From positions 1 through 22,990 of IMG/VR virus record IMGVR_UViG_3300020471_001086: a stretch of 22,990 nt of DNA. One strand, written 5' to 3'. How positions within the stretch are numbered: the first letter of the stretch is position 1; every line of letters begins with the position of its first letter. Under the pieces are notes generated by a model. That model was not told where the DNA came from. It searched no databases and saw nothing but the letters and a program-made list of their open reading frames with translations. Below are positions 1 to 17,845 of the stretch, piece by piece. The DNA is from a virus. The position numbers and the translations under genes are program-made.

Positions 1-376
1 GCCATCGATCAAATATTCTATTCATCACTTCTTCCTGACGATAGTGGGGGAAGTCAATATCGACATCAGGTAGGTCATCTCTGTTTGGATTTAAGAATCG
101 TGCCACGGGTATTCCCCACTGCACAGGATCTACGTCTGTTATGCCAAGTAGATAGCAGACAAGTGATGAGCCAGCACTACCGCGAGTCATATGAGGTATG
201 TCTCTGGTTATTGCTAGTATATCACATATTTGAATGAAGTAGTCTACGAAACGTAGTCTAAGGATGATTTGAGTTTCTTCGGCGAGCCTTTGCGTGTATT
301 CTTCTGTGCCTGGACATTGCCTAATAAATCTATCGTACAGCCTAGTTATGTCGTTTAGTTCTTTATCTTTTTTCAT
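1..376 (-). CDS. C-family (DnaE-like) DNA polymerase, N-terminal part, cut by window edge
   Basis: The first 125 codons of a gene that continues past position 1. Residues about 25-109 align by eye with the start of the bacterial DNA polymerase III alpha palm: a helical stretch, then RGSAGSSLVCYLLGITDVDP (from residue 65), then RFLNP and PDVDIDF (103-109). The GSxxGS loop contacts the incoming nucleotide in DnaE, and the two aspartates of PDxD are the first two of the three catalytic metal ligands. The protein begins directly before the palm, so the PHP domain of cellular DnaE is absent here. The ATG at 376 is preceded in frame by a TAG. It lies downstream of helicase gp41 and is separated from it by a 72-base gap holding a late-type promoter and a triple repeat. 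The family call is firm. Whether the full gene is a complete polymerase cannot be seen. Confidence 0.85.
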   Translation of the reverse strand, partial: MKKDKELNDITRLYDRFIRQCPGTEEYTQRLAEETQIILRLRFVDYFIQICDILAITRDIPHMTRGSAGSSLVCYLLGITDVDPVQWGIPVARFLNPNRDDLPDVDIDFPHYRQEEVMNRIFDRW

Positions 377-448: not shown

Positions 449-1885
449 TTATTGATCTTCGTCTGAATGCAACTCATTTAGTAGTTGTCTAAGTTTACCA
501 CCCTCTACTGTGCCTTTAATTTTGCCCACAGTATCTCCTTTGGTTGGATCCGGAACCCCCGGTCTTGCATCTTTAGGTGTGTCGGGGACTACTTTAGACT
601 TCTGTTTCAATGAATCGTATATAGTACTTCTCTGTTTGTCAAACTGTTTATATTCAGGATCGTCTGCTAAATCTCTTATTCTTAAACTATCAACATCAAA
701 CTCTAGGTCTACTTTTTGTCCAACACCGCTTGAACTTCTAGTTTTCATAAATTGTATCTGATATCGACCACGTTCTTTCATTGCTCTACTTGTAAAAATA
801 CCAATTACGTTGTCCGCTGTTTGTATCTTAGATAAACCTCCTGCTATGTGAGAATGATCAAATTCTATTTCTTCTACACTTGCTCTATTCAATTGTGATG
901 CAGTTGCCAACAACATTTGTGATTCTACTGCAAAGTTTCTTATTTCTTCTGATACATATTTGTCTTTTATAAACAAGTCTGCTGGACTGATACGTTTGCT
1001 TTTTGGCATCATCAAATCCAAATAATCAATCAATATACAATCAATTTTCTTTTTAGTTTTTAGTTCTAATTCTTTTATATAAGTTTTAATATCCAAAATT
1101 GTGCTACCACTTGGCATATACTTGATGTGCATCTGCCCGGATTTTTTAGCCATCATCTTAACTTTCATCTCAACATTATCTATTTCGGGAAATACTTTTT
1201 TAGTTGGAATGTTAGTCATCATGGCATCAAGTCTCATCGCAGTAAGTTCTTCACTTAACTCAAAACTTATGTAAACGGTATTCAAGCCAGTGGTTGCCCA
1301 ATTCACTGCAAGATTCTGTAAAAATAAACTTTTACCTGCGCCTGATCCACCTGCAAAAATGTTTAGTTCACCTCGGTTAAATCCACCGAACAGTTTCTTG
1401 TCAATGTTTGGCCAACCTGTGCTGACTTGTCCATTGGAGTTTTTAAGTCTCTCCAATCTACCTTTCGGGTCTTCAAAGTAGTCTGTACCAAGATCTTTCG
1501 TCAGTCCAACACTTACCGCGGCCTTAACCATATCCTCAACAGGAGCATAATCTCCTTTTTCTAGTAAGTCTGCTGACTGTAATATTGCACGTTCTAGTGC
1601 TTTGTGTCTTGAAAACGTTTCAAATTCGTCCAACAGCCAATTGAAGTGACTTGGATCTAAATCTTTTGCTGATTTTAATTTTATTTCATGCTTGGCATTA
1701 ACCTGTTCTACATCAGGCATTACCTTATATTCTTCCATATAGTCTTTAATAAATTTTGCAATTGGTTGCAATTTACGATCAAAAGATTCAGGCTTGAATA
1801 TATTTTGTGCCCTAGCAAATGATTCAGCATCTGCCAACATCATTTCAATATATAATTTTTGTACGTCGAATGTATATTCAGCCAT
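449..1885 (-). CDS. 41: Replicative DNA helicase, T4 gp41 / DnaB family
   Basis: A hexameric 5'-3' helicase that unwinds the fork and, with primase gp61, forms the T4-type primosome. The N-terminal ~130 residues are helical, as in DnaB-type proteins. The RecA-like motor follows: Walker A GGSGAGKS at 179-186, the conserved glutamate in FELSEE near 210, Walker B ILIDYLD at 284-290, and a TASQLNR sensor motif at 328-334. The length of 478 aa matches T4 gp41 (475 aa). The C-terminal ~60 residues are charged and proline-rich, as expected of a flexible tail. The start codon overlaps the stop of the upstream coiled-coil gene by one base (TAATG), so the two are probably translationally coupled. Confidence 0.93.
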   Translation of the reverse strand: MAEYTFDVQKLYIEMMLADAESFARAQNIFKPESFDRKLQPIAKFIKDYMEEYKVMPDVEQVNAKHEIKLKSAKDLDPSHFNWLLDEFETFSRHKALERAILQSADLLEKGDYAPVEDMVKAAVSVGLTKDLGTDYFEDPKGRLERLKNSNGQVSTGWPNIDKKLFGGFNRGELNIFAGGSGAGKSLFLQNLAVNWATTGLNTVYISFELSEELTAMRLDAMMTNIPTKKVFPEIDNVEMKVKMMAKKSGQMHIKYMPSGSTILDIKTYIKELELKTKKKIDCILIDYLDLMMPKSKRISPADLFIKDKYVSEEIRNFAVESQMLLATASQLNRASVEEIEFDHSHIAGGLSKIQTADNVIGIFTSRAMKERGRYQIQFMKTRSSSGVGQKVDLEFDVDSLRIRDLADDPEYKQFDKQRSTIYDSLKQKSKVVPDTPKDARPGVPDPTKGDTVGKIKGTVEGGKLRQLLNELHSDEDQ

Positions 1886-2043
1886 TATTTAAAAAACCTC
1901 TTAAATTTATCTATAGATTTTTGCAAAGGAGTATAAACTTCTTCAATAAAAACTATATGTTTTGATAATTTTTTATCTAAATCAGATATAACTTTTTTCA
2001 AGTCTGATATTTCTTTTCTTAATTTTTTAACTTCTTCTTCCAT
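1885..2043 (-). CDS. Small coiled-coil protein upstream of gp41
   Basis: A 52-residue ORF beginning MEEEVKKLRKEISDLKKV. Residues 1-30 show a heptad-like pattern with hydrophobic residues at V5, L8, I12, L15, I19, L22 and L26, so a short coiled coil is likely. The C-terminus is basic and aromatic (KFKRFFK). Its stop overlaps the gp41 start (TAATG), and its ATG lies one base from the methyltransferase stop, which supports a real gene in the operon. The family is not recognised. A role as a small gp41 partner would be an inference from position only. Confidence 0.7.
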   Translation of the reverse strand: MEEEVKKLRKEISDLKKVISDLDKKLSKHIVFIEEVYTPLQKSIDKFKRFFK

Positions 2044-2044
2044 A

Positions 2045-2539
2045 TTAATCCGTAAACTTCAATATTATTTTATCACCTTGTATCTGTTCTCTCCACCATT
2101 CAGGTGGTTTCACGCAAACGTGAGAATTAACTTCTTCGTTAGAGTTTGGTACTTTTAATTTTTGTTTAGCAAGTCTAGGACAAACACTTATATACAACCA
2201 ACCTTGTGTAAGGTCTTTCAGTTGTTGTACGATTCTAGGTATGTCCTCTTCCGGTATATGCTCCAACACATCAGTACAAATTACTAAATCAAATTTACCT
2301 GTTGGTTCGTTGCTGTATTCTGGTACCGCTGGATCGTATAGTGTAGCATTCCAATCTTTTTGATGATAATGTGCTTTACCGCAACCATAATCTAATATTG
2401 TCTTGATACCTTGTTGCTTTATCAAGTCATTGATTGCGTCTATATGATGATCACGTAAATTTGTGCCACGCCATGTATTAGGATCTTGGTGTGTTTGTTT
2501 TGCCATTTCTAAATACAGTTCGTATCTATTCTTATCCAT
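2045..2539 (-). CDS. Class I SAM-dependent methyltransferase
   Basis: A 164-residue Rossmann-fold methyltransferase. Motif I is ILDYGCG at 48-54, an acidic residue at the end of strand 2 is D69 (LYDP), and the later motif FDLVICTDVLEHI begins at 83. This last form is typical of the Methyltransf_11/UbiE-like group and not of DNA methylases, since no NPPY or DPPY motif is seen. The substrate is unknown; small molecule, glycan and protein are all possible. It overlaps the downstream end of the primase gene by 8 bases and sits between primase and helicase, but nothing in the protein links it to replication. Confidence 0.8.
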   Translation of the reverse strand: MDKNRYELYLEMAKQTHQDPNTWRGTNLRDHHIDAINDLIKQQGIKTILDYGCGKAHYHQKDWNATLYDPAVPEYSNEPTGKFDLVICTDVLEHIPEEDIPRIVQQLKDLTQGWLYISVCPRLAKQKLKVPNSNEEVNSHVCVKPPEWWREQIQGDKIILKFTD

Positions 2540-3545
2540 ACATTTTTCTCTTTAAATCTATTTTTAACTTATTAGATTCTGTTGAATTCAATATAGTTTG
2601 TATTGTAAACAATCTTCCATATTTTAACACAGCATCAGCCACGTCGTCAACACCTTCATCCCATTCCGGAAAAGCAACATTCCAACCAAATTCTACTGCT
2701 TGGTTAATTAACTTTTCTCCCGGAGCATCTCTATCTGGAACAACAATTACTTGGCGGTTTAAGCCGTCTATAAGGTCTCGCTGTACGTCATTTACCTCTG
2801 AACCCAGTATGCTTACTCCAGAAACGGATATAGCATCAAATGGTCCTTCAGTAACAATAACAAATTTTCTAGACCAGTCTTGTGCATCCATATTGAAAAC
2901 ATATCCCGGTTGCACATCGGTATAATATTTCACTTTGTCAGACTCCACAAATATTCTGCCTGTGTAGCCGACAACATCACCTTTCCAATAAAATGGAATT
3001 AACAAACGTTTGTCCATATCCCAAGTAGACACAGGAGAGTATAGGAAGTCATACCAATCAGCACCTATGCCTCGTTGTTTTAAATAATTTAAAAGTGAAT
3101 CAATTTTTTTCCATTGTGGTTCAGTCAAATCTTTGGCCACATATTTCTCTAACCACGTTTCTAGTTTATGTGCATTTTTAGGAAGTTCTTTCTTTTTAAA
3201 TGCAACAAATTTCTTTTTTTCTATTTTAGTATCTGCTTCCTCATGACGCATGGCTTCTATTGCTAATTTTTTAATTGTATCATCTGCAATTCCAATCCAA
3301 CTCATGAACTGCCTCATTTTAAAATTTAATTTTCTTCCAATTATATAGGATGCCTTATAGCCACAGTTGAAACAATGATAAGATAATGTTCCGTCAGCAC
3401 TTGTCATTATGCCTCCACGTTTTTTCTTATCTTGTGTTTCTCCGTTGTGTACACAACAAGGAGCATTGAATGATATCCACCCAGAAGGAGTTTTCTTCCG
3501 GCCGCCCGGCAGAGATGTCAGGATAGTAGACTGGATCAGGTTCAT
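2532..3545 (-). CDS. 61: DNA primase, T4 gp61 / DnaG family
   Basis: Makes RNA primers for lagging-strand synthesis and works with gp41. The N-terminus has a zinc-ribbon with C30/C31 and H33 followed by C58-x2-C61 (HCFNCGYK). A central linker leads to a TOPRIM domain with the catalytic glutamate E233 in VTEGPFDAIS and the metal-binding pair D271/D273 in VVPDRDAPG. DVAD at 301-304 follows. The length of 337 aa equals that usually seen for gp61 (about 340). The start at 3545 leaves a 10-base gap to the upstream virion gene, while the 3' end overlaps the methyltransferase gene by 8 bases. Confidence 0.9.
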   Translation of the reverse strand: MNLIQSTILTSLPGGRKKTPSGWISFNAPCCVHNGETQDKKKRGGIMTSADGTLSYHCFNCGYKASYIIGRKLNFKMRQFMSWIGIADDTIKKLAIEAMRHEEADTKIEKKKFVAFKKKELPKNAHKLETWLEKYVAKDLTEPQWKKIDSLLNYLKQRGIGADWYDFLYSPVSTWDMDKRLLIPFYWKGDVVGYTGRIFVESDKVKYYTDVQPGYVFNMDAQDWSRKFVIVTEGPFDAISVSGVSILGSEVNDVQRDLIDGLNRQVIVVPDRDAPGEKLINQAVEFGWNVAFPEWDEGVDDVADAVLKYGRLFTIQTILNSTESNKLKIDLKRKMYG

Positions 3546-3555
3546 ACCCTATATT

Positions 3556-4362
3556 TTACTGTCTATAAAGTATTTTGTCAATGATTCCAGTATTACCAGA
3601 GTCATTACTCCAACTAAATCTTACAAAGTGGTAAACACCTGTAAAGTTGAAATAACTTACTCCAGTCGAACTGGAAAAAGTATTTGTAGGACTACCAGCA
3701 CCATCAGTGGTAATATCAAACCAATCGGTTGATCCTGGTGAAGCAGACATTGAACCTTGTATTCTCAATGCACCCGAAAATCCTGCGTGTGTATAAACCG
3801 CGATTGTATGTAATGCTTTATTGTTATTTTGTCCTGGTTTAGCATTTATATTTCCTGATGTTTTTGCCAATGGTCCGCCTGATTGTGTGAAATTTGTTAT
3901 AGATGTACTATCAATAACACTTGGATAAGCACCGTCAATGATTTCTATTGTACCAGATGCATTGTATCCTGTATCGGCATATGTTACGATTGAACTGCCA
4001 TCGTCCTTATTTTCTCGAACAGAATAATTGTAAAATTTAGCATCCAAACTCAACAAATCTCCATCTGATATTTCTACTGATGCCTGTCCTTTAGTAGATG
4101 TTGTTGAGCCGTCGTCTTTTATTGTAAGAGTTTTAGTCAATACACTCTTTTTAGATTGTGTATCTATTACGTTAAATTCATAGGTTTTGCCCACTATGTT
4201 TTGTGGTTTTTGGTCCTCATTTTTGAAAGTAAATGTAATAGGGTTAAAAACACCTCTATACACTGTTAAACGTCTATCGTACACTTTGTCGTTCCTTCCA
4301 TGATAACCATTTATGTAGGCGATTACCAAATTGTTTATTAAATACCTTTGTATTGTTTGCAT
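3556..4362 (-). CDS. Virion structural (baseplate/tail-type) protein
   Basis: A 268-residue beta-rich protein. The N-terminal half (about 30-140) has alternating strands with the pattern YRGVFNPITFTFKN, then IVGKTYEFNVID and TLTIKDDGSTTS. This resembles the N-terminal domain of BppU-like baseplate proteins and structural proteins of marine T4-like phages. The C-terminal half (about 150-268) is rich in Ser, Thr and Gly and ends in a likely jelly-roll or fibre-type domain (SYFNFTGVYHFVRFSWSN). No signal peptide or catalytic motif is seen. It is the only structural-type gene in a replication region and has its own late-type promoter 17 bases upstream, which fits expression with the virion genes. 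Attachment or host recognition is an inference. Confidence 0.65.
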   Translation of the reverse strand: MQTIQRYLINNLVIAYINGYHGRNDKVYDRRLTVYRGVFNPITFTFKNEDQKPQNIVGKTYEFNVIDTQSKKSVLTKTLTIKDDGSTTSTKGQASVEISDGDLLSLDAKFYNYSVRENKDDGSSIVTYADTGYNASGTIEIIDGAYPSVIDSTSITNFTQSGGPLAKTSGNINAKPGQNNNKALHTIAVYTHAGFSGALRIQGSMSASPGSTDWFDITTDGAGSPTNTFSSSTGVSYFNFTGVYHFVRFSWSNDSGNTGIIDKILYRQ

Positions 4363-4378
4363 AGTACATATTTAACAA

Positions 4379-4386
4379 TATTTATG
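4379..4386 (-). promoter_or_regulatory. T4-type late promoter (CATAAATA)
   Basis: On the minus strand CATAAATA matches the NATAAATA late consensus. It lies in the 32-base gap between the structural gene (starting at 4362) and the divergent plus-strand gene (starting at 4395). Late timing is what a virion protein needs, so site and gene support each other. Confidence 0.6.
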
Positions 4387-4394
4387 GACATAGG

Positions 4395-4769
4395 ATGAAT
4401 GAAATTTTTAACACACTAAAGGACAAATTTCCTTTTCTAACACTCATAAGAAAGGGTGATTTGGAGTTTGTTGGTATTATACAAAACCAAGATAACAACG
4501 TGATCAGTTTTTATGATTATGGCAGAATCATGCAACCGCAAGATAAGATGAGGTTTTTAAAGTGTGGAGAAATTTGGTGGAACGAATCCAATAGAAAAAT
4601 CCCAATAAACATATTCTTAAAAGGTGAATTCAGATATTTTAGAACAACACTTGTTTCGTTGGCATCTAAAGACGTTGAAATAGTGCATGGACCAACTGTA
4701 AGACTGTCTGAAATTTCAAAGAAACGGGTAAAAAGAAGAACTATTCAATTAGTAAGAAGACCTATTTAA
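4395..4769 (+). CDS. Conserved marine T4-like phage protein, function unknown
   Basis: A 124-residue protein of mixed alpha/beta character. It has a central segment GEIWWNESNRKIPINIFLKG (about 66-85) and a strongly basic C-terminal segment (KKRVKRRTIQLVRRP) that could bind nucleic acid. The pattern recalls hypothetical proteins in cyanophages and related marine myoviruses; this is from memory and unverified. It is transcribed against its neighbours, and its last 8 bases overlap the end of the convergent basic mini-protein gene. The start at 4395 follows a weak purine stretch (TAGG). Confidence 0.7.
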   Translation: MNEIFNTLKDKFPFLTLIRKGDLEFVGIIQNQDNNVISFYDYGRIMQPQDKMRFLKCGEIWWNESNRKIPINIFLKGEFRYFRTTLVSLASKDVEIVHGPTVRLSEISKKRVKRRTIQLVRRPI

Positions 4770-4929
4770 TTTTAGTACGTTGTGTACTGTTAATCCCACA
4801 TACTCTTTCAACATATTCGGTTAATGGATTATCTTTTTGATATCCATAATATTCGCTACGTGAATAGTTACGGGAGGCTTTTTTACTAGTTTTTTTGGAT
4901 TTTCTTTTCTTAGTTTTTTGATGTTGCAT
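4762..4929 (-). CDS. Small lysine-rich protein of unknown function
   Basis: A 55-residue protein starting at the ATG at 4929. It could be extended to a GTG at 4947, but the ATG is preferred. The first ~25 residues are almost all Lys, Arg, Ser and Thr (KTKKRKSKKTSKK), followed by an aromatic stretch (SEYYGYQKDN). It overlaps the 3' end of the polymerase fragment by 20 bases in another frame and meets a plus-strand gene tail to tail. The basic N-terminus suggests nucleic-acid binding, but no family is recognised. Because it is short and overlapping, some doubt remains that it is expressed. Confidence 0.5.
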   Translation of the reverse strand: MQHQKTKKRKSKKTSKKASRNYSRSEYYGYQKDNPLTEYVERVCGINSTQRTKIK

Positions 4930-5500
4930 CAAAACTATATTTAGCACGAGACATCAAATTCATCTGCACAACGATTGCTTGAGCATAAGCAACAGCATGG
5001 GATTTTTTGAAAAAGTATGATCCGTCTGTGGGACGTACCCAAACTTCTTTCAGTATATCTATCCAATCCTTGTGCATCAAGTGCCTTTTAGCAGGACGTA
5101 TTATTGCTAACACAGCCGCAAGTTGTTCGATGTTTTTAGGTTCTAGTTTTGATACTATATTAAAATGTCCATTTAAATGGAAAAGTTTATCAACAATAGT
5201 TGCATCTTTGAGCATTTCCCAATCAGGCTCTTTTATCATTAATTCTACAAGTTCTTGCTCTGACTTGATATCTTTATAGATACTAACGTTCAAGCAATCA
5301 ATTTTGAAATATCCTCTATCTTCTGCTTTTTTATAATCCAAACTTGAATGCCCTGTAATTGGGTGTTCAGGAACTGCATGAAAGTACACACCTGTTTTAT
5401 GTTTTTCAACTTTGTCATCTTTAATAATAGAAGCAGGAGTGTGTTTGAATAATTTCAATACTCCATCTCTATCAAAAAAGTCTATATCAACATCAGGCAT
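4910..5500 (-). CDS. Reduced C-family (DnaE-like) polymerase palm/fingers fragment
   Basis: A 196-residue protein that begins exactly at the catalytic motif: MPDVDIDF (1-8). Further blocks align in order with DnaE. KHKTGV (33-38) matches the KHAGGV segment. GYFKIDCLNVS (63-73) matches LVKFDFLGL and supplies the third catalytic aspartate, D68. LFHLNGHFNIVSKLEP (106-121) matches VFQLESRGMKDLIKRLQP. AAVLAIIRP (128-136) matches ALVALFRP. FFKKSHAVAYAQA (163-175) matches GFNKSHSAAYAL. Relative to DnaE it lacks the PHP domain, the GSxxGS loop, most of the ~150 residues between the catalytic aspartates, part of the fingers and everything after them. The ATG overlaps the stop of the 74-aa gene upstream (TAATG). 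It could be half of a split enzyme, an accessory subunit or a decayed paralogue. The family call rests on ordered motifs; activity is unknown. Confidence 0.75.
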   Translation of the reverse strand: MPDVDIDFFDRDGVLKLFKHTPASIIKDDKVEKHKTGVYFHAVPEHPITGHSSLDYKKAEDRGYFKIDCLNVSIYKDIKSEQELVELMIKEPDWEMLKDATIVDKLFHLNGHFNIVSKLEPKNIEQLAAVLAIIRPAKRHLMHKDWIDILKEVWVRPTDGSYFFKKSHAVAYAQAIVVQMNLMSRAKYSFDATSKN

Positions 5501-5724
5501 TAATGCATTTTCCTTTTATTATAATTTTCAAAATCTTTTCTTGCACCCGGTTGCAATAAATCTAAAACATCAAGTAGTTTCTTATAGGCCAACGAATTAG
5601 TCATATTTGCAGTCATTTCCGGCATAACAACCTTACCAACACTTCCGTCTTTTTTAATTACGACAATACAGTCGCCCGGCTCAATTTGCATTCCGTCTGC
5701 TATTTCACTTTCAATCCTACTCAA
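5500..5724 (-). CDS. Conserved small protein of unknown function (TTG start)
   Basis: A 74-residue protein beginning M(TTG)SRIESEIADGMQIEPGD. A beta-rich first half (DCIVVIKKDGSVGKVVMPEM) is followed by a helical second half ending LLDVLDLLQPGARKDFENYN. It recalls small hypothetical proteins of marine T4-like phages; this is not checked. The TTG at 5724 is chosen because a strong Shine-Dalgarno sequence lies six bases before it. An in-frame TTG ten codons earlier has no such site. The stop overlaps the polymerase-fragment start by one base, which suggests coupled expression with it. Confidence 0.75.
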   Translation of the reverse strand: MSRIESEIADGMQIEPGDCIVVIKKDGSVGKVVMPEMTANMTNSLAYKKLLDVLDLLQPGARKDFENYNKRKMH

Positions 5725-6403
5725 TTTTTGCCTCCTTGGCTGTTTCCTGTACAAACAAATAATCTGCTGGATAACTTTTAAATTTACTTGCCCAAAACTC
5801 CGGAATTATAAATTTTTGTGCCATTTGTAATTGTTCATCACTAAATGATTGTAGCATTTTTTTTCCTGCAGAGCAACCAAGTATTAACCATGGAGACATT
5901 TTTCCCTGCTGTATGTGTGCCACAACACGTGTCGTATTTGCAAGTCTAAAGTAATCGCTCCATTGTGCGTGTTGTTCTTCTGCCCAATCCATCATTGTTG
6001 CTATGGATCTTCTCAATGCGGCTTCGACCGGTTCTCTTTTAAGTGTGTCTATGAGATAAGTTTCGTACATTGTATCATTTGCCCAATGGTCAAGTTTCAC
6101 TTGCGACAATATAACAAAGTCTATATATTTTTCAGGATATAATGGGTTGATGTGCATTATGTATCTGCCAAATTTTACAAATGCATTGTAGTACGGTGAA
6201 TCACAAAACTGTTCATAGGTTTTTGGTTTATGATTTTTTTGATGTATTTCATAAAACCTTTGGAACACCATGAAAGCATTTTGCACCCATTTCTCATTTT
6301 TTTGTAGGTATCTTCTTTTTGGTTCACACATATGAACTTGTAATGTTCTTTCTCTAGTAAACTCTTTGCCACAGTATGGACACTTAAATTTAATTGATTC
6401 CAT
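5717..6403 (-). CDS. Zinc-finger protein, conserved in marine T4-like phages, function unknown
   Basis: A 228-residue protein with an N-terminal C2HC finger: C8, C11, H24 and C26 in CPYCGKEFTRERTLQVHMC. The rest is mostly helical and aromatic, with a segment SPYYNAFVKFGRYIMHINPL near 69-88 and no enzymatic motif that I recognise. The finger suggests DNA, RNA or protein binding. The gene overlaps the gp62-like gene upstream by 14 bases and carries the ribosome-binding site of the next gene in its last codons. Its place among replication genes suggests a role in replication or transcription, but this is inference. Confidence 0.75.
   Translation of the reverse strand: MESIKFKCPYCGKEFTRERTLQVHMCEPKRRYLQKNEKWVQNAFMVFQRFYEIHQKNHKPKTYEQFCDSPYYNAFVKFGRYIMHINPLYPEKYIDFVILSQVKLDHWANDTMYETYLIDTLKREPVEAALRRSIATMMDWAEEQHAQWSDYFRLANTTRVVAHIQQGKMSPWLILGCSAGKKMLQSFSDEQLQMAQKFIIPEFWASKFKSYPADYLFVQETAKEAKIE
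5731..5737 (-). promoter_or_regulatory. Shine-Dalgarno AAGGAGG setting a TTG start
   Basis: AAGGAGG on the minus strand, six bases upstream of TTG 5724 and lying inside the end of the zinc-finger gene. It is much stronger than the ribosome-binding sites of most neighbours, which suggests it compensates for the weak TTG start codon. Confidence 0.75.
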
Positions 6404-8981: not shown

Positions 8982-10315
8982 ACTTTAATAATTGCCTTTG
9001 TATTATCAAACCTCATGGGTCTATTACTAGTATAATACAACTTCTTAGGCAAATTATCAAGAAAGATTTTCAAATTACCGCCACCGCTTGACCAATAACC
9101 ACCACCTATATCCATGATTGCTGTTTTAGGTTCAAACTTTGATCTTATTTGTGTCCTTGTAATTTTGTTTCTCATAAAATAAACTTTGGTATTCTGGTCA
9201 ATATACTTAAACTGTTTTGACATCTGTATGATCTCATGAATCTTGTCTTTAAGGTCTCTGTCCGCTCTCATATCATTTACCCATTCTCCTAAATTGCCTT
9301 CACGTCTATCAGCATCAAAACCCCATGATATCTGTTTGTAAATATCTACACCGTTGGCTTCAAACGTTTTAATCCAGTTCCAAATTTCTTCAACAGTATC
9401 TCGAGAATCCAACTCACCACTCACAGGCATAATTATAGGCCAACTATCTAAATCGTCTAACATCCTTACTATGCTATCACGACTATAAACGTTGCTATCA
9501 ATCCACATATATGTACTATGACTGGTTGCTACTTTGTAAGTTAAAGGACACATTCCTTCGTTCCAACCTTTTGCTGGTATCTTAGGCACTGCCAATCCAA
9601 CAGATTTTAACTTATCTACCGATCTAATTAGATCTTTTTCTACACCATTCCAATACTCTTGCAATGATTCTGGAGCATTTTGTATAGCAATACTATTGTC
9701 AGCAAATACCGCCACTGGTTTTTTGAAACTGTTTTTTTCTTTTCTTATTTCATAAAATAGATCAATTAAAGTTTGATCGCTAAATTTAAAATCATATCTA
9801 ACAGCAATCAAAGTACAATAGTAACAAGTAACATCGGTGGCCTTTATTGTCCATTTTTTTGATTCTCCATCATATCTACAAGTGCCTGAAGGCAGTCCTT
9901 TTTTGTCTTTTAAAACTCTTATTAATGAAATTATTTTTTTGTTGTAAGGAAATTTAAGTTCTATCCATTCACCATTATCGTCCTCATATTTTTCAATTGA
10001 TTTATCCCAATCAATTTTTCTGAAAGGATGATCAAAAACAGGTGTATCCAGCAAAGGACGGATATCAATGCTGTGCCTCTCAAAGCCACAGGCATATCTT
10101 TTCAATAAAATTACTGCAAGTTTGGCCTGTTTTTCAGTCCATGGATATTGTGCATCAGCAAGACTGTGTACTGTTTGTCTGTCCTTAGGATGTGTGTAAA
10201 CTTTGGGTCTAGATTTATATGCACCTATATTATCCCAAAAAAATTCATTATATGCTAGTATTTTGAGTGCTTCGTTTACTGTTTTTGGCATTTTAGACTC
10301 TGTTATTTCTGGCAT
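8978..10315 (-). CDS. Large protein with a HARP-like segment, coupled to uvsW
   Basis: A 445-residue protein, not recognised as a whole. Residues ~118-180 (KFPYNKKIISLIRVLK, then RYDGESKKWTI, then LIAVRYDFKFSD) follow the pattern of the HARP domain, the fork-DNA-binding module of the SMARCAL1 annealing helicase: a strand, a helix with LIxxLK, YDxxxKxW and a final hydrophobic strand. The N-terminus (1-80) is helical with the motif WTEKQAKLAVILLKRY. The C-terminal half contains an aspartate/tryptophan-rich region and ends in a GGGYWSSGGG loop. No Walker motif is seen, so it lacks its own recognisable ATPase. It is the first gene behind a sigma70-type promoter and overlaps uvsW by four bases, which suggests a fork-remodelling partner for UvsW. 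The HARP assignment is by eye only. Confidence 0.6.
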   Translation of the reverse strand: MPEITESKMPKTVNEALKILAYNEFFWDNIGAYKSRPKVYTHPKDRQTVHSLADAQYPWTEKQAKLAVILLKRYACGFERHSIDIRPLLDTPVFDHPFRKIDWDKSIEKYEDDNGEWIELKFPYNKKIISLIRVLKDKKGLPSGTCRYDGESKKWTIKATDVTCYYCTLIAVRYDFKFSDQTLIDLFYEIRKEKNSFKKPVAVFADNSIAIQNAPESLQEYWNGVEKDLIRSVDKLKSVGLAVPKIPAKGWNEGMCPLTYKVATSHSTYMWIDSNVYSRDSIVRMLDDLDSWPIIMPVSGELDSRDTVEEIWNWIKTFEANGVDIYKQISWGFDADRREGNLGEWVNDMRADRDLKDKIHEIIQMSKQFKYIDQNTKVYFMRNKITRTQIRSKFEPKTAIMDIGGGYWSSGGGNLKIFLDNLPKKLYYTSNRPMRFDNTKAIIKV

Positions 10316-10345
10316 AAATTTAGATAATTAATAGTATATAATTCA

Positions 10346-10373
10346 ATTATAACAGAAATGGTAAAAAGGTCAA
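10346..10373 (-). promoter_or_regulatory. Sigma70-type early promoter for the HARP-like/uvsW operon
   Basis: On the minus strand TTGACC (10373-10368), a 16-base spacer and TATAAT (10351-10346) preceded by TGT, that is an extended -10 (TGnTATAAT). The expected transcript start near 10339 leaves a leader of about 25 bases before the ATG at 10315. The -35 box overlaps the region just upstream of the divergent SprT-like gene. A plus-strand TATAAT at 10337-10342 could serve that gene, although no good -35 is seen for it. Confidence 0.75.
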
Positions 10374-10376
10374 CCT

Positions 10377-10844
10377 ATGAAAAAGAAGTCACATAACCAG
10401 CGAAAATCACTTAAGAAGCAGTTCGCTAGATCACTTGCTCTTAAGGAAAATGTTGTATGGTATAAACCTACTCCTTATGTTGCTAATATTTGGTTCAGTA
10501 GACTTAACAAACTGTTATTTGGTAATAGACTGCATGGAGTAGAAATTAGAATCAAAAAATTACATCATGATTGGGGAAGATGTGTGGCCGATTGGGATAA
10601 TAGAAAATGCAGAAAAGGAACGTTCAACCAAAGAATTATACCATTCCAAAAAACCGAAGTATATCATTACATTGAATTGCATTGTAAGTTTCCTACATGG
10701 AAAGATTTCATAGAGACATTGGCACACGAAATGGTGCACCTATATCAGATGTCTGTGATGAAAGATCCTTACTCAAATCACAATGAAAATTTCTACGCCT
10801 TTAGAGAAAAATTTTCTAAGGTCGGCCTAAGATTATATCGTTAA
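10377..10844 (+). CDS. SprT-like zinc metalloprotease-fold protein
   Basis: A 155-residue protein with the zinc-binding helix LAHEMVHLYQ: H117, E118 and H121 form HExxH, and H135 in SNHNENFY is the likely third ligand, as in SprT/Spartan proteins. The N-terminus is highly basic (KKKSHNQRKSLKKQFAR), which would suit DNA binding. Cellular SPRTN digests proteins crosslinked to DNA; a similar repair or processing role in phage is inferred. It is divergent from the HARP-like/uvsW operon, and its last 29 bases overlap the convergent MptE-like gene. Confidence 0.85.
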   Translation: MKKKSHNQRKSLKKQFARSLALKENVVWYKPTPYVANIWFSRLNKLLFGNRLHGVEIRIKKLHHDWGRCVADWDNRKCRKGTFNQRIIPFQKTEVYHYIELHCKFPTWKDFIETLAHEMVHLYQMSVMKDPYSNHNENFYAFREKFSKVGLRLYR

Positions 10845-11565
10845 ACCTTTTATAAGTCATTAACCTACTGTTACCTAGGTCGGTTCCTGTCTGCATATGA
10901 TTTAGATAATCAGGTGGATCGTCATGCACTACTGTGAAGTTTATGTAAGGACGCATTTTTAAATGATCCCTAAACTGTTTGTACCAACCCTCAAATATTT
11001 TATCATCATTACGTTTTCCATAACACTCGGTGTCTTGGTATATGTTGTTAAGTTGATTCTTTCCGTACTCTCTAAAATCAAATCCTAACAAATACATATC
11101 TTTGTGGCCGTGAACTCCTGCTGTCCAAAAGGCCGCATTTCCTGATATCCAATGCGGATTGTTTGGAATCAAATGCAATTTACCTTTGCCGTGTGCTCTG
11201 TTTACTTCTAAACTAGGAGCATAGTGAATACATTTTTCGTAGACCTTATCCTCAAGCATTTTTACAGTCATTTTAGTATCAACACTAAAAATATAGTCAG
11301 GAATAAAATCTCTATACAATGCATTACAGCCATAAGTCTGTCCGGTCTCTTTCAAAGTTGTAAGATCAAACCCTTTCCTAGAAGGTCCGTTTCCGATGAT
11401 GTACGCATTACCTCTTGGTTTTGCTTTTACTCTATCTTCCATGTATGCAGTATTCTTAACTTTTTTGCCTTGCTTTATTGTGATATTAGTAACAATAGTT
11501 TCGCCTGTGTAAGGCTCCCATGGAATTTCTTGTATTTCTGGTTTGCCTAAATTTATTGTTTTCAT
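10816..11565 (-). CDS. MptE/DUF115-like Rossmann protein, possible glycan enzyme
   Basis: A 249-residue protein. The block AYIIGNGPSRKGFDLTTLK (54-72) with the GxGPS loop, then YGCNALYRDFIPDYIFSVD (78-96), matches the pattern of the DUF115/6-hydroxymethylpterin pyrophosphokinase MptE-like family. Many members sit in flagellin- or surface-glycosylation clusters and are related to sialyltransferase-like folds. HWISGNAAFWTAGVHGHKD and YLLGFDFREYG follow in the centre. It is the last gene of the glycan block, and its start overlaps the 64-aa gene by four bases. Activity is not predictable from sequence. Confidence 0.65.
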   Translation of the reverse strand: MKTINLGKPEIQEIPWEPYTGETIVTNITIKQGKKVKNTAYMEDRVKAKPRGNAYIIGNGPSRKGFDLTTLKETGQTYGCNALYRDFIPDYIFSVDTKMTVKMLEDKVYEKCIHYAPSLEVNRAHGKGKLHLIPNNPHWISGNAAFWTAGVHGHKDMYLLGFDFREYGKNQLNNIYQDTECYGKRNDDKIFEGWYKQFRDHLKMRPYINFTVVHDDPPDYLNHMQTGTDLGNSRLMTYKRFNDIILGRP

Positions 11566-11756
11566 GACGTGTATGGCTCCATTAATTTGTCAAAATATTT
11601 TTTTGTTATTTGTTTTAATTCCACAGCATCGGCACCGTCTTTATAAAATTGTTTTACATCTTTCATGATCATTTTGTAAGGCATATAACCAAAGTGATAA
11701 GTTTCTGTTTTATTTTTTGTAGTAACTTTTGCTTCATAAAAACAATCTCGTTTCAT
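11562..11756 (-). CDS. Small protein of unknown function in the glycan block
   Basis: A 64-residue protein (MKRDCFYEAKVTTKNKTETY) with a short strand-rich start and a helical, lysine-rich end. No motif or membrane segment is seen. It is held in place by a one-base overlap (TAATG) with the upstream glycosyltransferase stop and a four-base overlap with the MptE-like start, so it is probably translated. The family is not recognised. Confidence 0.65.
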   Translation of the reverse strand: MKRDCFYEAKVTTKNKTETYHFGYMPYKMIMKDVKQFYKDGADAVELKQITKKYFDKLMEPYTS

Positions 11757-12625
11757 TATAGATACCTATCTTTTAACCTTGCTTTTATCCTTTCCCATGG
11801 GATACCCTGTTGTATTTCTTTTTCCCACCATTCTGTATAGGCTAGTTTGTTTGCCCAATTTTTCCTATTTGGCATGGCAGGTGTGTTTATATCAGCAAGA
11901 CTTTCGTTACCAACTTCATAACACAAACTAGATGCTGATACAAAAACAGGAACACCTTCGAGAACAGATTCAATGGCAGGGTTTGATGAATGATTTACAA
12001 CTGCCCATGTTTGTCCTAAAGTTGCTTTAAAGTCTGTATCGTCATACGTTGACCAATCTCGTTTGGGCATTCTAATAAAAACATCTTTAAATTTTTCTGT
12101 GTCAAAACTTATTTGATTTCTCGGATGAGGTCGTACCAATATTGGTCTAGTGGTGTATTTTCTAATTTCAGTAATTTGTTTTTTAATCCATTTACCCATT
12201 TTAGGAAGTCCTATCCATTGTTGACTTGTATCGTGTTGTCCACATAATACAATCATGTCACCACTACTGTTCCACGGTTTCATTTCCTTTTGGAATAAAG
12301 GCCACCTTTTATCATCAAATTCTTGATTGGCAAAATCTGCGTCTCTGTTTATTCCATTGATTCCTATTTTAAAAGTTTCGTTTCTTTTCAATCCACCTAC
12401 TTCTAACACAATTACAGGTCTATTAGTTTTCCTATAGTCTTCCCAAATCTTTCTGTTACCTTCCATTCGTCCACGCCACAACACTGACCAAATTACAGCG
12501 ACATCGGCATTTTTGTTTTCATTGATGTAAACATCATGCCCGTCTTTCTTTAAACTTTCGATGAATGCTTTGAAAATAGGTTTGGAGTTCAAACTTCCGA
12601 ATTCTGGATAACAAGCAATTTGCAT
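11756..12625 (-). CDS. GT-B-like capsule/surface glycosyltransferase, paralogue 1
   Basis: A 289-residue protein resembling capsule-polysaccharide export/biosynthesis (KpsS/CDP-glycerol transferase-like) GT-B proteins. RPHPRN at 165-170 and the C-terminal nucleotide-sugar region NHSSNPAIESVLEGVPVFVS (211-230) are the key blocks. SLADINTPAMPNRKNWANKL (242-261) follows. The same closing arrangement (serine-rich loop, acidic residue, GxPVF, then IETP-like and LAY-like elements) recurs in three other genes of this block. The donor and acceptor sugars are unknown. Both ends overlap neighbours by one base. Confidence 0.7.
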   Translation of the reverse strand: MQIACYPEFGSLNSKPIFKAFIESLKKDGHDVYINENKNADVAVIWSVLWRGRMEGNRKIWEDYRKTNRPVIVLEVGGLKRNETFKIGINGINRDADFANQEFDDKRWPLFQKEMKPWNSSGDMIVLCGQHDTSQQWIGLPKMGKWIKKQITEIRKYTTRPILVRPHPRNQISFDTEKFKDVFIRMPKRDWSTYDDTDFKATLGQTWAVVNHSSNPAIESVLEGVPVFVSASSLCYEVGNESLADINTPAMPNRKNWANKLAYTEWWEKEIQQGIPWERIKARLKDRYL

Positions 12626-13542
12626 TAGTTCCCCTTGTTGCCTTTTGCAACTTTGTTTACAATATCTTCTTTTTGTTTAGGATCAAACTTTACTCCACTA
12701 AATGGATCATAGGATTCTACATTTTTCCAATAGTCTTCTTGACGTTTGACTCTTAAATCACTTGCAGAACTTTTACCTTTAACTTTTCTTTTGCCTTTCA
12801 TGTGGTCTATATATTCGCCTAGTACACTATTAATAAACACATGATGTCCTCTTGCACCAGCACCCTTGCCAATATCTACACCTTCGTTTGGTGCAATTCT
12901 TTTTACAACTTGCCAAAACAAATAACTGTCGTGCCATTCTAATTCCTCAAAAATAGTATCTTTGATATACATATCAGTCCAATAACTCATAAATTCTTTT
13001 ATCTTTGGATGTGTTTTGTTGTAACAGACCCAGCCACATTCGGGATATTTTTCTCCTCTGCCTAAAAAGTTAACAAGTTTATCGCTAGGCAATAATCCTG
13101 TTACAAACTCTGTTGTAATTTTTCTAAAAGTAAATGTATCAGCATCTAACCATAACATATATTCTTCGGGCCATGTTCTAATTGCATGATCAACTGCAAA
13201 CGTTTTGTGTGCAAATCTAACTGCGTCCCATAGGTATGATCCTTTGCCTTTATCTTTATCACCAGCGGCAGGACTACGTTTTACTCCACCGGGTATCTCT
13301 TGTAGTTCACCATTTGCAACAGGATCGTTTTTATGTTTCTCTTTAAACTTAACTAGTTCCGGATTGGCTTCATGTATGTCAACAAATACTACTTTTTCGT
13401 TCTGTAAGTTAGGTTTGTCCCCTTCGTAGTAAGCATATAATTTTACATCGTCCGGCCAAAATTCTATATGGCTTTCGATCATTCTTTGTGCATAAACATT
13501 CCATCTATTAGGAGGAAATGTTGTAACTACGCCTAATTTCAT
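12625..13542 (-). CDS. GT-A-like glycosyltransferase
   Basis: A 305-residue protein starting MKLGVVTTFPPNRWNVYAQR at the ATG at 13542. An ORF extension to 13608 is rejected because it runs into the upstream gene, whose stop overlaps this ATG by one base (TAATG). The DxD motif of GT-A enzymes is D133-A-D135 in YMLWLDADTFTF, which binds the metal and nucleotide-sugar. A tryptophan-rich region with WHDSYLFWQVV and a basic C-terminal segment follow. The likely role is sugar transfer in the glycan block; the sugar is unknown. Confidence 0.7.
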   Translation of the reverse strand: MKLGVVTTFPPNRWNVYAQRMIESHIEFWPDDVKLYAYYEGDKPNLQNEKVVFVDIHEANPELVKFKEKHKNDPVANGELQEIPGGVKRSPAAGDKDKGKGSYLWDAVRFAHKTFAVDHAIRTWPEEYMLWLDADTFTFRKITTEFVTGLLPSDKLVNFLGRGEKYPECGWVCYNKTHPKIKEFMSYWTDMYIKDTIFEELEWHDSYLFWQVVKRIAPNEGVDIGKGAGARGHHVFINSVLGEYIDHMKGKRKVKGKSSASDLRVKRQEDYWKNVESYDPFSGVKFDPKQKEDIVNKVAKGNKGN

Positions 13543-14525
13543 TATAGTCCTAACCTTTCTTTGAATCTTTTGTAAACAGTTCCGTCTCTGATTTCTTGTA
13601 TGCTCCACATCTTATATCCAAGATCATTTAACCATTGAGTACGATCTGGATATTCTGGTGTTTCTATTTTAGTTAAATCTGTGTTTGCTACAGGCCAACA
13701 AATTGCAAGATCTGACGTAACAAAGGTAGGGATACCACGAACGCAGGAATCGACACTGGCAGTAGAATTGTGAGTAACAACAGCATGACAATTAGTTATT
13801 ACATCTTGAAAGTTGAATCTGTAGTACTTTTTCTCGTCACCTGCAAAATGTTTTTGTGTAAATTGCATCTCTATATCTTCGGGAAATTCTTTTCTTCTAT
13901 CATCCATAACTGCTACATGATTTGGATGTGGACGAACAATAAATTTTCTTTTAGTTAATGGTCTTAATTTTTCATAGACACCATTGAACCACTCTACAGG
14001 ATCAAGTTCGTTCATGCTCCAATTATCTTTAGGCTGAAGTACAAATAGTATTGGATCTTCTGGTTTAGATTTTCTCCATTCTTCGTGTTTTACTTTAAAT
14101 TTTTTCTTCATCATTTCCCATCTATCCGATGGACTGTTGTCTGCTAGAAAGTTTCCATCGTTCATGGGTGTGTAAAGTGCTACTCTAAAATGATGATCAG
14201 GACTTGTAGATGTGTTTCCAAAACTTGATAGCACTCCACCGTCAAATGTTATTAACGGAATCTTTTGTGCTCTACATTTATCTGCTAGTTCTCTTCTACG
14301 TCCTTTTGTATGATGCATTTGATTAGATCCACCGTAGCCAAACATAGCACAGATTGGTGCAGTTGGTTCCATCTCGCCTTCGACAGTTGGTCCTGCTCTG
14401 TCTTCGTTTACAATTATAGGTTCGTCGCCTGCCGCCTTGACTCCTTCGGCCAAGTGATAAAGCAACTCCCAACTATTACCACGTTTTCTGTCTTTTACAG
14501 TTCTTCTAAAAATTTCACATTTCAT
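13542..14525 (-). CDS. GT-B-like capsule/surface glycosyltransferase, paralogue 2
   Basis: A 327-residue protein with IVRPHPNHVAV (RPHP 198-201), a histidine/serine block THNSTASVDSCVRGIPTFV (251-269) and a closing segment LTKIETPEYPDRTQWLNDLG (284-303). These match paralogue 1 in order and spacing. The N-terminus includes MFGYGGSNQMHHTKGRRREL, a glycine-rich turn near the expected first Rossmann unit. It overlaps paralogue 3 by 11 bases upstream and the GT-A gene by one base downstream. Confidence 0.7.
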   Translation of the reverse strand: MKCEIFRRTVKDRKRGNSWELLYHLAEGVKAAGDEPIIVNEDRAGPTVEGEMEPTAPICAMFGYGGSNQMHHTKGRRRELADKCRAQKIPLITFDGGVLSSFGNTSTSPDHHFRVALYTPMNDGNFLADNSPSDRWEMMKKKFKVKHEEWRKSKPEDPILFVLQPKDNWSMNELDPVEWFNGVYEKLRPLTKRKFIVRPHPNHVAVMDDRRKEFPEDIEMQFTQKHFAGDEKKYYRFNFQDVITNCHAVVTHNSTASVDSCVRGIPTFVTSDLAICWPVANTDLTKIETPEYPDRTQWLNDLGYKMWSIQEIRDGTVYKRFKERLGL

Positions 14526-15333
14526 TAAGCATTCTCCAGGCAGTTCCGTTTGCCATTTCTTCCATTGTCCAATTATTATATGCTAAATTTGAGAACAAAG
14601 CAACTCTATCTTCGTACTTGGGTGTTTCAATTTTAGAAAAGTCTGTTTCTGCTATTGGTTTGGCCGCACAATTATTACCATCACAAAAAACTGGTACGCC
14701 ATTTGTAAAACTTTCCACCATTGTGTTGCTATTGTAAGTTACACAGGCAAAATATTGACTCCAATCTATTTTTCCTTGATGTGTTGTTGGTTTATCAATT
14801 TTAACTGTTGCTCCAACATGATCTTTTGCAATCGTTGGATTATATGGTTTTTCTCTTATATCAATCTGCCTGTCTGTATTCTTTTTTAGAATTTCTAGTG
14901 TTTTTGATAACCAAAGTTCTTCGTTAAAAAAATTTGCTATTGCATTAGTTGGAGGTAGGACTAAAATTTTCTTGCCATTTTTTTGCCATGGCATAATATT
15001 TCTTGCAAAAAATTTTTCATATCTATCACTTTTAGTATTAGTAAATTTGTTTTGGCAATGAGCATTTTTTGTAATTCTTAACCAATGAGGACTGTCATGT
15101 GCATTAGTAAAGTATCCGTGATCTATAAAATAAAAATCACGTTTTTGTTGTTCACACCATCTATACATTTCTCCGGAGCCGGCAAGTATTCCATACATTG
15201 TTAAATTTTCATTTGGAAGTTCTTTCAAATCTCGAAATTGATATATCTTATTTGGACCAGGTGTGCCTTGCACAAAAGCATCCACATATCTTTGTGTTCT
15301 TGGTTTTGTAGTGTGTATACCTGCTATATTCAT
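14515..15333 (-). CDS. GT-B-like capsule/surface glycosyltransferase, paralogue 3
   Basis: A 272-residue protein closest to paralogue 4 on the plus strand. Both share a HWLRITKN/HYWRICKN block, an SDR-Y/F-(E/D)KF block, a GK-ILV-P block, a TDRxIxxREKP block (153-163 here) and a C-terminal ACVTYNSNTMVESFTNGVPV (196-215 here) ending in FSKIETPKYEDR. The family contains capsule-type transferases. The start overlaps the upstream oxygenase stop by four bases (ATGA). Confidence 0.7.
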   Translation of the reverse strand: MNIAGIHTTKPRTQRYVDAFVQGTPGPNKIYQFRDLKELPNENLTMYGILAGSGEMYRWCEQQKRDFYFIDHGYFTNAHDSPHWLRITKNAHCQNKFTNTKSDRYEKFFARNIMPWQKNGKKILVLPPTNAIANFFNEELWLSKTLEILKKNTDRQIDIREKPYNPTIAKDHVGATVKIDKPTTHQGKIDWSQYFACVTYNSNTMVESFTNGVPVFCDGNNCAAKPIAETDFSKIETPKYEDRVALFSNLAYNNWTMEEMANGTAWRMLNEM

Positions 15334-16073
15334 TTAACTTCCGTAACCGAGTACATTGTCTTTCTACTTTGTCTGCTGTATTCAGCAATTATGTTTACAC
15401 TTCTCCTATACATTGTTGCACCCTGTCTCGGAGTAACACCGTGTATTGCATTTGGTGTTGAGTTACAAAACATAACAAAAGTATTTGCTTTATATGGAAC
15501 AGTAGTAACCACAGGTCCAAGATCGTTCTCAAATATTTGTCTTCCTTTTGTTTTGTCTACTTTGTTAACATTGTTTTTTGATTCATGTATTTGGAAATCG
15601 CCGCCTGTACTTTTATCTTCATTGTAACGCATATAAAGAAGTCCTGCATACATTTCCATTGGATTGTCTATATGTGCAGTTCTACTTGTTGTTGTGATTG
15701 GTCTATGCATTACAGTTTGGCAGTCTGTCCACACCGTAGCATCTTTGTCTGCCCAACCTCTCGCACCAAGTTTACCTTCTAGTTTATCTATGTAAGGTGA
15801 AAATATTTCTCGCACTTCATTAAAAAAAGTTTCTGATGTGTGATACTCACAGAACTCTTTCCAACTTTCTGATACTATATTAGGTTTAAGCATTTCGTCT
15901 GCTTTAAGTCTGTAACATATTCCGTTGTCATAAGGTTGTGTGTCTAACAGTTGTTTCTCTGGCCACTCTTTATCTAGTTGATTATAAAGATCCTCGGGTA
16001 GAGCATTTTCTATTACAAAATGCGGATAAGGATCTGTAATAACTGTGCTAAAATTTTTTAAAATTGATATCAT
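15330..16073 (-). CDS. 2-oxoglutarate/Fe(II)-dependent oxygenase
   Basis: A 247-residue jelly-roll dioxygenase. The iron ligands are H134 and D136 (TAHIDNP) and H211 (NAIHGV). R223/R224 (MYRRSVNI), 12-13 residues later, is placed to bind 2-oxoglutarate. GGDFQI (157-162) is a typical core strand. Prolyl-4-hydroxylase-like enzymes of this kind hydroxylate proteins, sugars or nucleobases. It lies between two glycosyltransferase genes with four-base overlaps on both sides, so a hydroxylated glycan or glycoprotein acceptor is plausible but not shown. Confidence 0.85.
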   Translation of the reverse strand: MISILKNFSTVITDPYPHFVIENALPEDLYNQLDKEWPEKQLLDTQPYDNGICYRLKADEMLKPNIVSESWKEFCEYHTSETFFNEVREIFSPYIDKLEGKLGARGWADKDATVWTDCQTVMHRPITTTSRTAHIDNPMEMYAGLLYMRYNEDKSTGGDFQIHESKNNVNKVDKTKGRQIFENDLGPVVTTVPYKANTFVMFCNSTPNAIHGVTPRQGATMYRRSVNIIAEYSRQSRKTMYSVTEVK

Positions 16074-17155
16074 AGATTATACTTTGAAATAAGTTCGTTA
16101 ATATTTAAACGAAAATTGACCATGTCTTTCATTTTTTTATTTTTCGGTTTTGGACCTTCTACTTTTTCTGTTTCAGCAACAAACACCTCATGATCTAGTC
16201 TTAAATGGTGAGATAGTATAGGATAGACTTTTTTTTCTAGAAATGCCCTATGTTGTATTTCGATTACTTTTGTTTTTGGTTGGCACCATAATAAGTTAAT
16301 TAATCCTGCACCGTGTGGTGATAATATGTGTGAAGCATTAGAAAAGCACTCTACTTGTTGTTTTATATCCATACTTTCTAAACTTACAGTTTCCCAACCT
16401 TTCAGTGCCAATATCAATTGTTCTTGATTCGTAATACTTCTATTTCCGCTTTGCCTTGTAACTATAATTTTTTTATTAGGTATTGATACTTTTCTCACAC
16501 TCCTGTTGGCAAGTCGCTGTATCCATTCAGGCAAACGTGGTGTAATTATTCCGTCTTTGTGATTGCTCATTGAAGGAACTATTAAATGCTTGAACTTCCA
16601 AGTTGTATTTTTTGGCATAGTCAAATATCTTATTTTTGGGAAAAATACTTTTGCAATTTTATCGAAGTAAGAACTTGGATTTGCTAATACAAAAACAAAA
16701 TGTTCTATTAAAAAATTTGGAAAATATTTTTCAATTAATCTTATTTTTGAAACAACATCTATCCAAATATGCCATGGATTCTCTGCACTATATTCGTCTA
16801 TAGGTAACCATACATATTTTCCATTCTCATTAAATTGTTCAGAAATTTCTGGAATGCTTACACTCATAGCATCTTGCCACTCTGTAAAAACAGTGTGTAC
16901 TTTTTCTGGTTTATTTTTGTATTTGTGTATTAAAGGCCACACGTGTTCTGTTATTAAATGATTTTGTTCAGTGATCAAAAGAGGTAAACTGTTTACCCTA
17001 CAATTAGTAGATGAAAACATAAATGTTGGTAAACTTGTCCACTCATTTTGTTTAATATCCTGATGCCAAGACACTTTATAGTCATACTCGGGATCAATTA
17101 TTTCACCTCTGTCGATGAAATATTTTAAGTCAGTAATATTTTTAACAGCCTCCAT
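16070..17155 (-). CDS. GT61-family (DUF563) glycosyltransferase
   Basis: A 361-residue protein. The C-terminal half has VTRQSGNRSITNQEQL (232-247), then GWETVSLESMDIKQQVECFSNA and the signature ILSPHGAGLINLLWC (277-291), as in GT61 enzymes. The N-terminal half (1-180) is less conserved and probably binds the acceptor. This is the first gene of the minus-strand part of the glycan block, diverging from the SGNH-like gene with only 21 bases between start codons. No clear promoter for this gene was found: the TTGACA at 17183-17178 lacks a well-spaced -10. Confidence 0.82.
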   Translation of the reverse strand: MEAVKNITDLKYFIDRGEIIDPEYDYKVSWHQDIKQNEWTSLPTFMFSSTNCRVNSLPLLITEQNHLITEHVWPLIHKYKNKPEKVHTVFTEWQDAMSVSIPEISEQFNENGKYVWLPIDEYSAENPWHIWIDVVSKIRLIEKYFPNFLIEHFVFVLANPSSYFDKIAKVFFPKIRYLTMPKNTTWKFKHLIVPSMSNHKDGIITPRLPEWIQRLANRSVRKVSIPNKKIIVTRQSGNRSITNQEQLILALKGWETVSLESMDIKQQVECFSNASHILSPHGAGLINLLWCQPKTKVIEIQHRAFLEKKVYPILSHHLRLDHEVFVAETEKVEGPKPKNKKMKDMVNFRLNINELISKYNL

Positions 17156-17171
17156 TTGTAATAATTATACT
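17142..17171 (+). promoter_or_regulatory. Possible sigma70-type promoter for the SGNH-like gene
   Basis: TTAACA (17142-17147), an 18-base spacer and TATACT (17166-17171). A start of transcription near 17178 would fall on the first ATG (17177) and only about eight bases before a second in-frame ATG (17186), implying a leaderless or nearly leaderless mRNA. It lies partly inside the divergent GT61 gene. Confidence 0.35.
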
Positions 17172-17176
17172 ATATT

Positions 17177-17845
17177 ATGTCAACGATGTTTTCAAATGGT
17201 TGTAGTTTTCTTACCCCTCGTCCAAAAGACGGTGTTGATACTTTTGTTAGTAAGGAGTTAGCACAAAATTATAACAGTGAACTAGTAAATTTAGCCATGG
17301 GAGGCCGGGGCAACAAAAGAATAAGTTTTACAACAAAGTGGTGGTTTGAGTTAGAAAAACCAAAAGATGTTTTTGCTGTTATAGGATGGTCTAGTCAAAT
17401 ACGAAATGATTATATTACCAACGATGGGTGGAAAGCAGGACGTATTGACAGGACTGATTTAACTTGGCGAACATGGAAAACTTCAAACGAATTAAGATGG
17501 CTTACAGGTTTTAAAGGGTGGGACGTTGAAAAAAATCTTATTGCTGATTTTTTAGATAATGTTTTTAATTTACAGAATTATTTCAAAATTAAAAAAATTC
17601 CATACGTAATGTATAATGCTCTTCCCAATAGTGTTGATGATACAATATTAGATTTTGATGTTTTTAAAGAAGCAATAGATATGAAAAGATTTTTTGCTCC
17701 ATCAACAAGTCATTTTGAATTTATACAACAAAACAATTATATAGTCAGTCCAGATGATCCACATCCGTCCAAAGAAGGACATGAAAAATGGGCAAACTCT
17801 CTAAAGGAATTTATAGATGCTAACAATTTACGCACCATCGAGTAA
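17177..17845 (+). CDS. SGNH/GDSL hydrolase-like protein
   Basis: A 222-residue protein. FSNGCSF at 5-11 matches block I of SGNH hydrolases with S10 as the likely nucleophile. NLAMGGRGN (38-46) fits block II with its glycine, GWSSQIRND fits the region of block III, and SPDDPHPSKEGH (191-202) fits block V with D193 and H196 completing the triad. SGNH enzymes often remove or transfer acyl groups on polysaccharides. Together with the adjacent transferases this suggests glycan acyl modification, which is an inference. Translation may begin at 17186 instead. Its 3' end overlaps the next gene by 29 bases. Confidence 0.7.
   Translation: MSTMFSNGCSFLTPRPKDGVDTFVSKELAQNYNSELVNLAMGGRGNKRISFTTKWWFELEKPKDVFAVIGWSSQIRNDYITNDGWKAGRIDRTDLTWRTWKTSNELRWLTGFKGWDVEKNLIADFLDNVFNLQNYFKIKKIPYVMYNALPNSVDDTILDFDVFKEAIDMKRFFAPSTSHFEFIQQNNYIVSPDDPHPSKEGHEKWANSLKEFIDANNLRTIE

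Follow-up and report, generated by a model that had tools for sequence, protein, structure and literature searches.

Parts of two probably separate C-family DNA polymerases at the replication locus of a marine jumbo phage

Polymerases of the C family are the replicases of bacteria. Among phages, genes of this family are few and were possibly acquired from bacteria, according to a survey of C-family enzymes (PMC3919608). As reported by Iyer et al. 2021 (PMC7824862), the minimal Pol III alpha of group 2.2 jumbo phages consists of an N and a C protein encoded by distant genes, and occurs beside a family B polymerase; the N half was proposed to form the incoming-nucleotide side of the enzyme. Another way of dividing a phage DnaE is perhaps seen in Gordonia phage LilyPad, where two adjacent genes (L646, positions 1921-5307), encoding 319 and 809 aa, are both annotated as DnaE-like DNA polymerase III alpha.

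The window, that is, the whole stretch of DNA analysed here, is a linear virus contig of 22,990 bp that ends at position 1 and belongs to a marine jumbo phage related to PA5oct, Atu_ph07 and RaK2; the marine-type gene content of its close relatives was judged from sequence similarity only. Two minus-strand ORFs of the window share the motif PDVDIDF, as the initial annotation had pointed out: a left gene that runs off the contig end (PF07733, 111.8 bits) and a small gene (PHROG 11778, “DNA polymerase”, E 9e-66). Its remark that the shared motif differs at silent positions also holds, with three of the seven codons (those for V, I and F) spelled differently. In all likelihood, the window encodes parts of two separate C-family polymerases, one being a complete 564-aa DnaE that lacks a PHP domain (hereafter mini-DnaE) and the other the C half of a split Pol III alpha. 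The features concerned are as follows.

2..376, minus strand: the first 125 codons of a DnaE-type polymerase without PHP domain, assigned by its PF07733 match, its motifs and a full-length copy in a near-identical contig
449..1885, minus strand: DnaB-type replicative helicase, whose synteny with the C half is kept in relatives
2532..3545, minus strand: DNA primase, a conserved neighbour between the C half and the helicase
4395..4769, plus strand: small gene conserved in this phage group, immediately downstream of the C half
4910..5500, minus strand: C half of a split minimal DNA polymerase III alpha (PHROG 11778), with DxDID at codons 3-7, K66 and D68 corresponding to E. coli K553 and D555, and the FKKSHAVAYA region at codons 164-173
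5717..6403, minus strand: conserved neighbour containing a C2H2 zinc finger (PHROG 11058), which keeps its syntenic place upstream of the C half

The small gene and its distant N half

The small gene encodes 196 aa and opens with MPDVDIDF from position 5500, just ahead of the PDxDID position. It bears the Mg-binding aspartates and the template-binding part of the polymerase, including its own third aspartate and KKSHAVAYA, and the RGS motif is absent. Its ATG follows an AAGGA-type ribosome-binding site, and in-frame stops lie directly upstream, so the gene does not represent the 3′ end of a longer frame. Relatives were found in 63 reference jumbo-phage records, including Atu_ph07, Phosso, PA5oct/Paride, XacN1, RaK2, GAP32 and SCTP-2. 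The fold of the product was predicted with a pLDDT of 87.6, using an alignment from which two rows were left out, and its first 11 matches in the PDB are all DNA polymerases, nearly all of them Pol III alpha, at weak E-values (best match E 0.0057, probability 0.99); phage C-family polymerases were also matched in a viral structure library. The small gene is thus a member of an already published kind, the C half of split Pol III alpha.

The shortness of the gene and its weak Pfam match could conceivably mean that it is a remnant in decay, or a paralogue of a complete DnaE without catalytic function. Against this, the catalytic residues are conserved in hundreds of contigs as well as in many reference phages, and the gene keeps a fixed place before the primase and helicase. 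In contigs that also carry the mini-DnaE, the median pN/pS of the C half is low, at 0.157, a rough sign of purifying selection given that synonymous sites are near saturation, and D68, K66, H168 and Y172 are intact. The genes counted were picked by MPDVDIDF, which makes the invariance of DxDID partly an artefact of selection and leaves the other four residues unaffected. Decay or loss of catalysis is therefore very improbable. Where the initial annotation had supposed that the small gene would be an accessory paralogue if the left gene proved complete, the paralogous piece is confirmed and the merely accessory status is not, since the gene encodes the conserved C half of a different C-family polymerase, one that is divided between two genes.

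The counterpart of the C half is a protein of ~175 aa that ends just short of PDxDID. In all 11 reference phages checked, the sole PF07733 match is a short ORF elsewhere in the genome, 11 to over 200 kb from the C half, with a GRGSS-type motif (GRGSC in Atu_ph07) and a stop before the PDxDID position. A profile of these N halves aligns to residues 208-393 of E. coli DnaE and the C half begins at a position equivalent to ~P400, so the two halves are complementary. A family B polymerase was found in each of the 11 phages. Two marine cousins of the window, both near-complete (G041, 358 kb; G042, 268 kb), likewise possess an N half, a C half (sharing 54% and 52% identity, respectively, with that of the window) and a family B polymerase, and the 564-aa DnaE was not found in either of them.

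In such an enzyme, the C half would hold the template-binding part and the metal-binding strand as well as all three catalytic aspartates; to rebuild an active palm, it would need the N half with its GRGSS nucleotide-binding motif. We infer that the two halves assemble, and that the phage of the window likewise encodes an N half together with a family B replicase. The idea of a “split polymerase”, raised in the initial annotation, consequently stands for the small gene as a C half and falls for its partner, which is the distant N-half gene and not the left gene.

A complete DnaE at the contig end

The window covers no more than the N-terminal 125 aa of the left gene, with RGSAGSS at 184-164 and PDVDIDF (E. 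coli D401/D403) at 70-50 on the minus strand. As PDVDIDF occurs in both genes, the pair could be taken for one split polymerase with a duplicated motif, and it had been predicted that the first gene would lack its own third aspartate and KSHAxxYA region. Near-identical contigs, in which the remainder of the gene was read, speak against it. In one of these (L109, IMGVR_UViG_3300020473_000135), the gene is complete at 10001-11695, encoding 564 aa with 100% identity over the 125 visible residues, and both regions are there: the third aspartate lies within EHLKVDVLA, and the KSHAxxYA region reads RAHAVNL. An RGS-motif palm and three catalytic aspartates hence reside in a single chain, as read from the related contigs. 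A full-length left gene with a third aspartate of its own refutes the idea that these two genes are halves of one enzyme. The natural complement of the small gene is in any case a separate N-half gene, and the tree described below does not group the two lineages as sisters, so a single divided enzyme is almost certainly not what the window encodes. The other proposal made at the outset, which combined a full polymerase without PHP with a paralogous fragment, is the one borne out.

The full-length chain matches the palm (PF07733, 141.6 bits) and finger (PF17657, 53.9 bits) domains of Pfam. It begins ~65 aa ahead of RGS, and no Pfam match to a PHP domain was obtained. Equivalents of E. coli D401, D403, D555 and K553 all align, while two other conserved positions are altered, K758 being replaced by R and the tyrosine of KSHAxxYA by L. 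Across 72 copies, chosen by their RGSA motif, the motifs RGSAGSS, PDVDIDF, KHCGG, EHLKVDVLA and CRAHAVNL are invariant or nearly so, and the median pN/pS of 0.107 is a rough indicator of purifying selection, synonymous sites being close to saturation. Judging from its sequence, the left gene is a PHP-less variant and not a standard DnaE, and it probably possesses a C-terminal OB-like domain besides palm, thumb and fingers; a predicted structure, made from a shallow alignment, reached a pLDDT of only 37.5.

The two polymerases have separate ancestries. In a tree of the shared palm and finger columns, the split halves form one clade and the mini-DnaE another, together with a short DnaE from LR756508, an uncultured huge phage; each clade has 100% support and the two are not sisters, in a sample that is small and with deep branches that are weak. 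Neither the profile scores nor the tree support a recent duplication by which one polymerase arose from the other. In a full-length search, the left gene is only ~23-36% identical to phage DnaE genes, and a genome scan for a possible host origin, made with six short peptide patterns, yielded no relative.

Patchy occurrence beside the helicase

The gene order SSB, UvsX, UvsW, C half, opposite-strand gene, primase, DnaB is the same in the window as in many reference phages, with XacN1 and RAS14 deviating, and in mini-DnaE contigs that reach far enough upstream, the C half precedes DnaB. Between UvsW and UvsX, at 10816-18629, the window holds a block of probable sugar-related genes whose order varies among relatives, comprising a glycosyltransferase-61 gene (16070-17155), an oxygenase-like gene (15330-16073) and several related genes of ~290 aa. 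A clade-conserved gene of the SprT-like metalloprotease type (PF10263) lies on the opposite strand at 10377-10844.

Downstream of DnaB, where the left gene starts after 72 bp in the window, the clade is divided. The mini-DnaE follows the helicase in 65 loci and is absent from that place in 15, among distinct loci in which 5 kb or more beyond DnaB could be read; these numbers are biased, as some loci were fetched with DnaE as the query. Helicases of the clade are 83-93% identical (83-89% for the sister contigs without DnaE), and the mini-DnaE is thus patchy among close relatives. A gene of the HhH-GPD (endonuclease III-like) family stands ahead of the mini-DnaE in 46 of the 65 loci, compared with 2 of the 15 lacking it, in counts that ignore relatedness; it overlaps the DnaB stop by ~10 bp (for example, 61602-62285 of G001:C1). 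The window itself has no HhH-GPD gene between DnaB and DnaE. This association points weakly to repair synthesis as a role for the mini-DnaE. A phage-encoded porin is unusual, and a gene for a porin-like (PF00267) outer-membrane protein was seen in one of the sisters without DnaE (G006:C1, 12192-13130), with the same family in four others (G007, G010, G012 and G013); it was not seen in the corresponding stretch of long contigs with the mini-DnaE.

Neither an N half nor a family B polymerase was found in contigs of the window's clade, those with the mini-DnaE reaching up to 117 kb; PF07733 and the N-half profile matched only the 564-aa DnaE itself. When mapped on G041, the mini-DnaE contigs cover ~30-127 kb, and the family B and N-half genes of that genome lie at ~219 kb and ~244 kb. 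The absence of both genes can be explained by contigs that end well short of the syntenic positions. Long contigs bearing an N half had in turn no 564-aa DnaE, and a comparison of flanking genes linking them to the window's clade gave no overlap, only one or two gene families recurring. One carrier of the mini-DnaE (G068) is nearer to the cousins G041 and G042, with UvsX 78-87% identical.

It is conceivable that phages with the mini-DnaE have lost their N half, in which case the C half would need another role, such as that of an accessory subunit that binds to the 564-aa DnaE, to the helicase or to the clamp. The mutually exclusive appearance of N half and mini-DnaE in the contigs would fit such a loss, but the syntenic place of the N half falls outside every mini-DnaE contig, and the C half retains there the catalytic residues and the selection that a non-catalytic role would not need; we consider the loss quite unlikely. 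Similarly, the place of the mini-DnaE immediately beyond DnaB in the window, and the lack of a family B polymerase in the same contigs, could suggest that it has replaced family B as the main replicase of the clade. That, too, is unlikely: the mini-DnaE is missing at this place in sisters with 83-89% identical helicases, in the 484-kb genome of LR756508 the orthologous gene occurs together with family B-like ORFs, and the contigs do not cover the syntenic place of family B. There is also a small chance that the C half of mini-DnaE phages works without an N half, in trans with the mini-DnaE, or that their genome holds three polymerase systems together (family B, split Pol III alpha and mini-DnaE), with two C-family enzymes active in the same infection and perhaps having subunits in common.

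Returning to the preferred reading of two separate enzymes, the mini-DnaE would polymerise alone beside the replicative helicase and, lacking PHP, presumably without built-in proofreading. It would then be an accessory polymerase, for gap-filling and repair or as a backup, and not the main replicase.

Comparison with described systems

The split Pol III alpha of Iyer et al. 2021 (PMC7824862) is the closest described counterpart of the small gene, sharing the same C half, the same catalytic residues and the same neighbourhood (UvsX/UvsW, then C half, primase and DnaB); in relatives of the window, an N-half gene and a family B polymerase are present as well. The difference is that part of the window's clade adds a complete PHP-less DnaE beside the helicase, with no N half seen in the contigs of those members.

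The left gene resembles DnaE of E. coli and of other bacteria and phages in its palm, fingers and catalytic positions. It differs in its length of 564 aa, in having neither PHP nor a recognised C-terminal domain, and in the two substitutions noted above. Its nearest relative is the short DnaE of LR756508 (ORF 47358-49085), a full-length orthologue with 36% identity over 99% and its sister in the tree; the neighbourhood there is another one, the motif is kept as KGHALAYG, and no separate N or C half was detected in that genome.

The two small chains and the 564-aa chain without PHP represent natural minimal forms of a C-family polymerase. Moreover, as the clade has members with and without the mini-DnaE and a C half that is constant, the role of the split enzyme and the assembly of its halves become directly testable by comparison. 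The small gene's kind was already known; what is new, as far as the searches show, is a clade of marine jumbo phages in which a complete PHP-less DnaE occupies a place close to the replicative helicase in only part of the members, alongside a C half under purifying selection.
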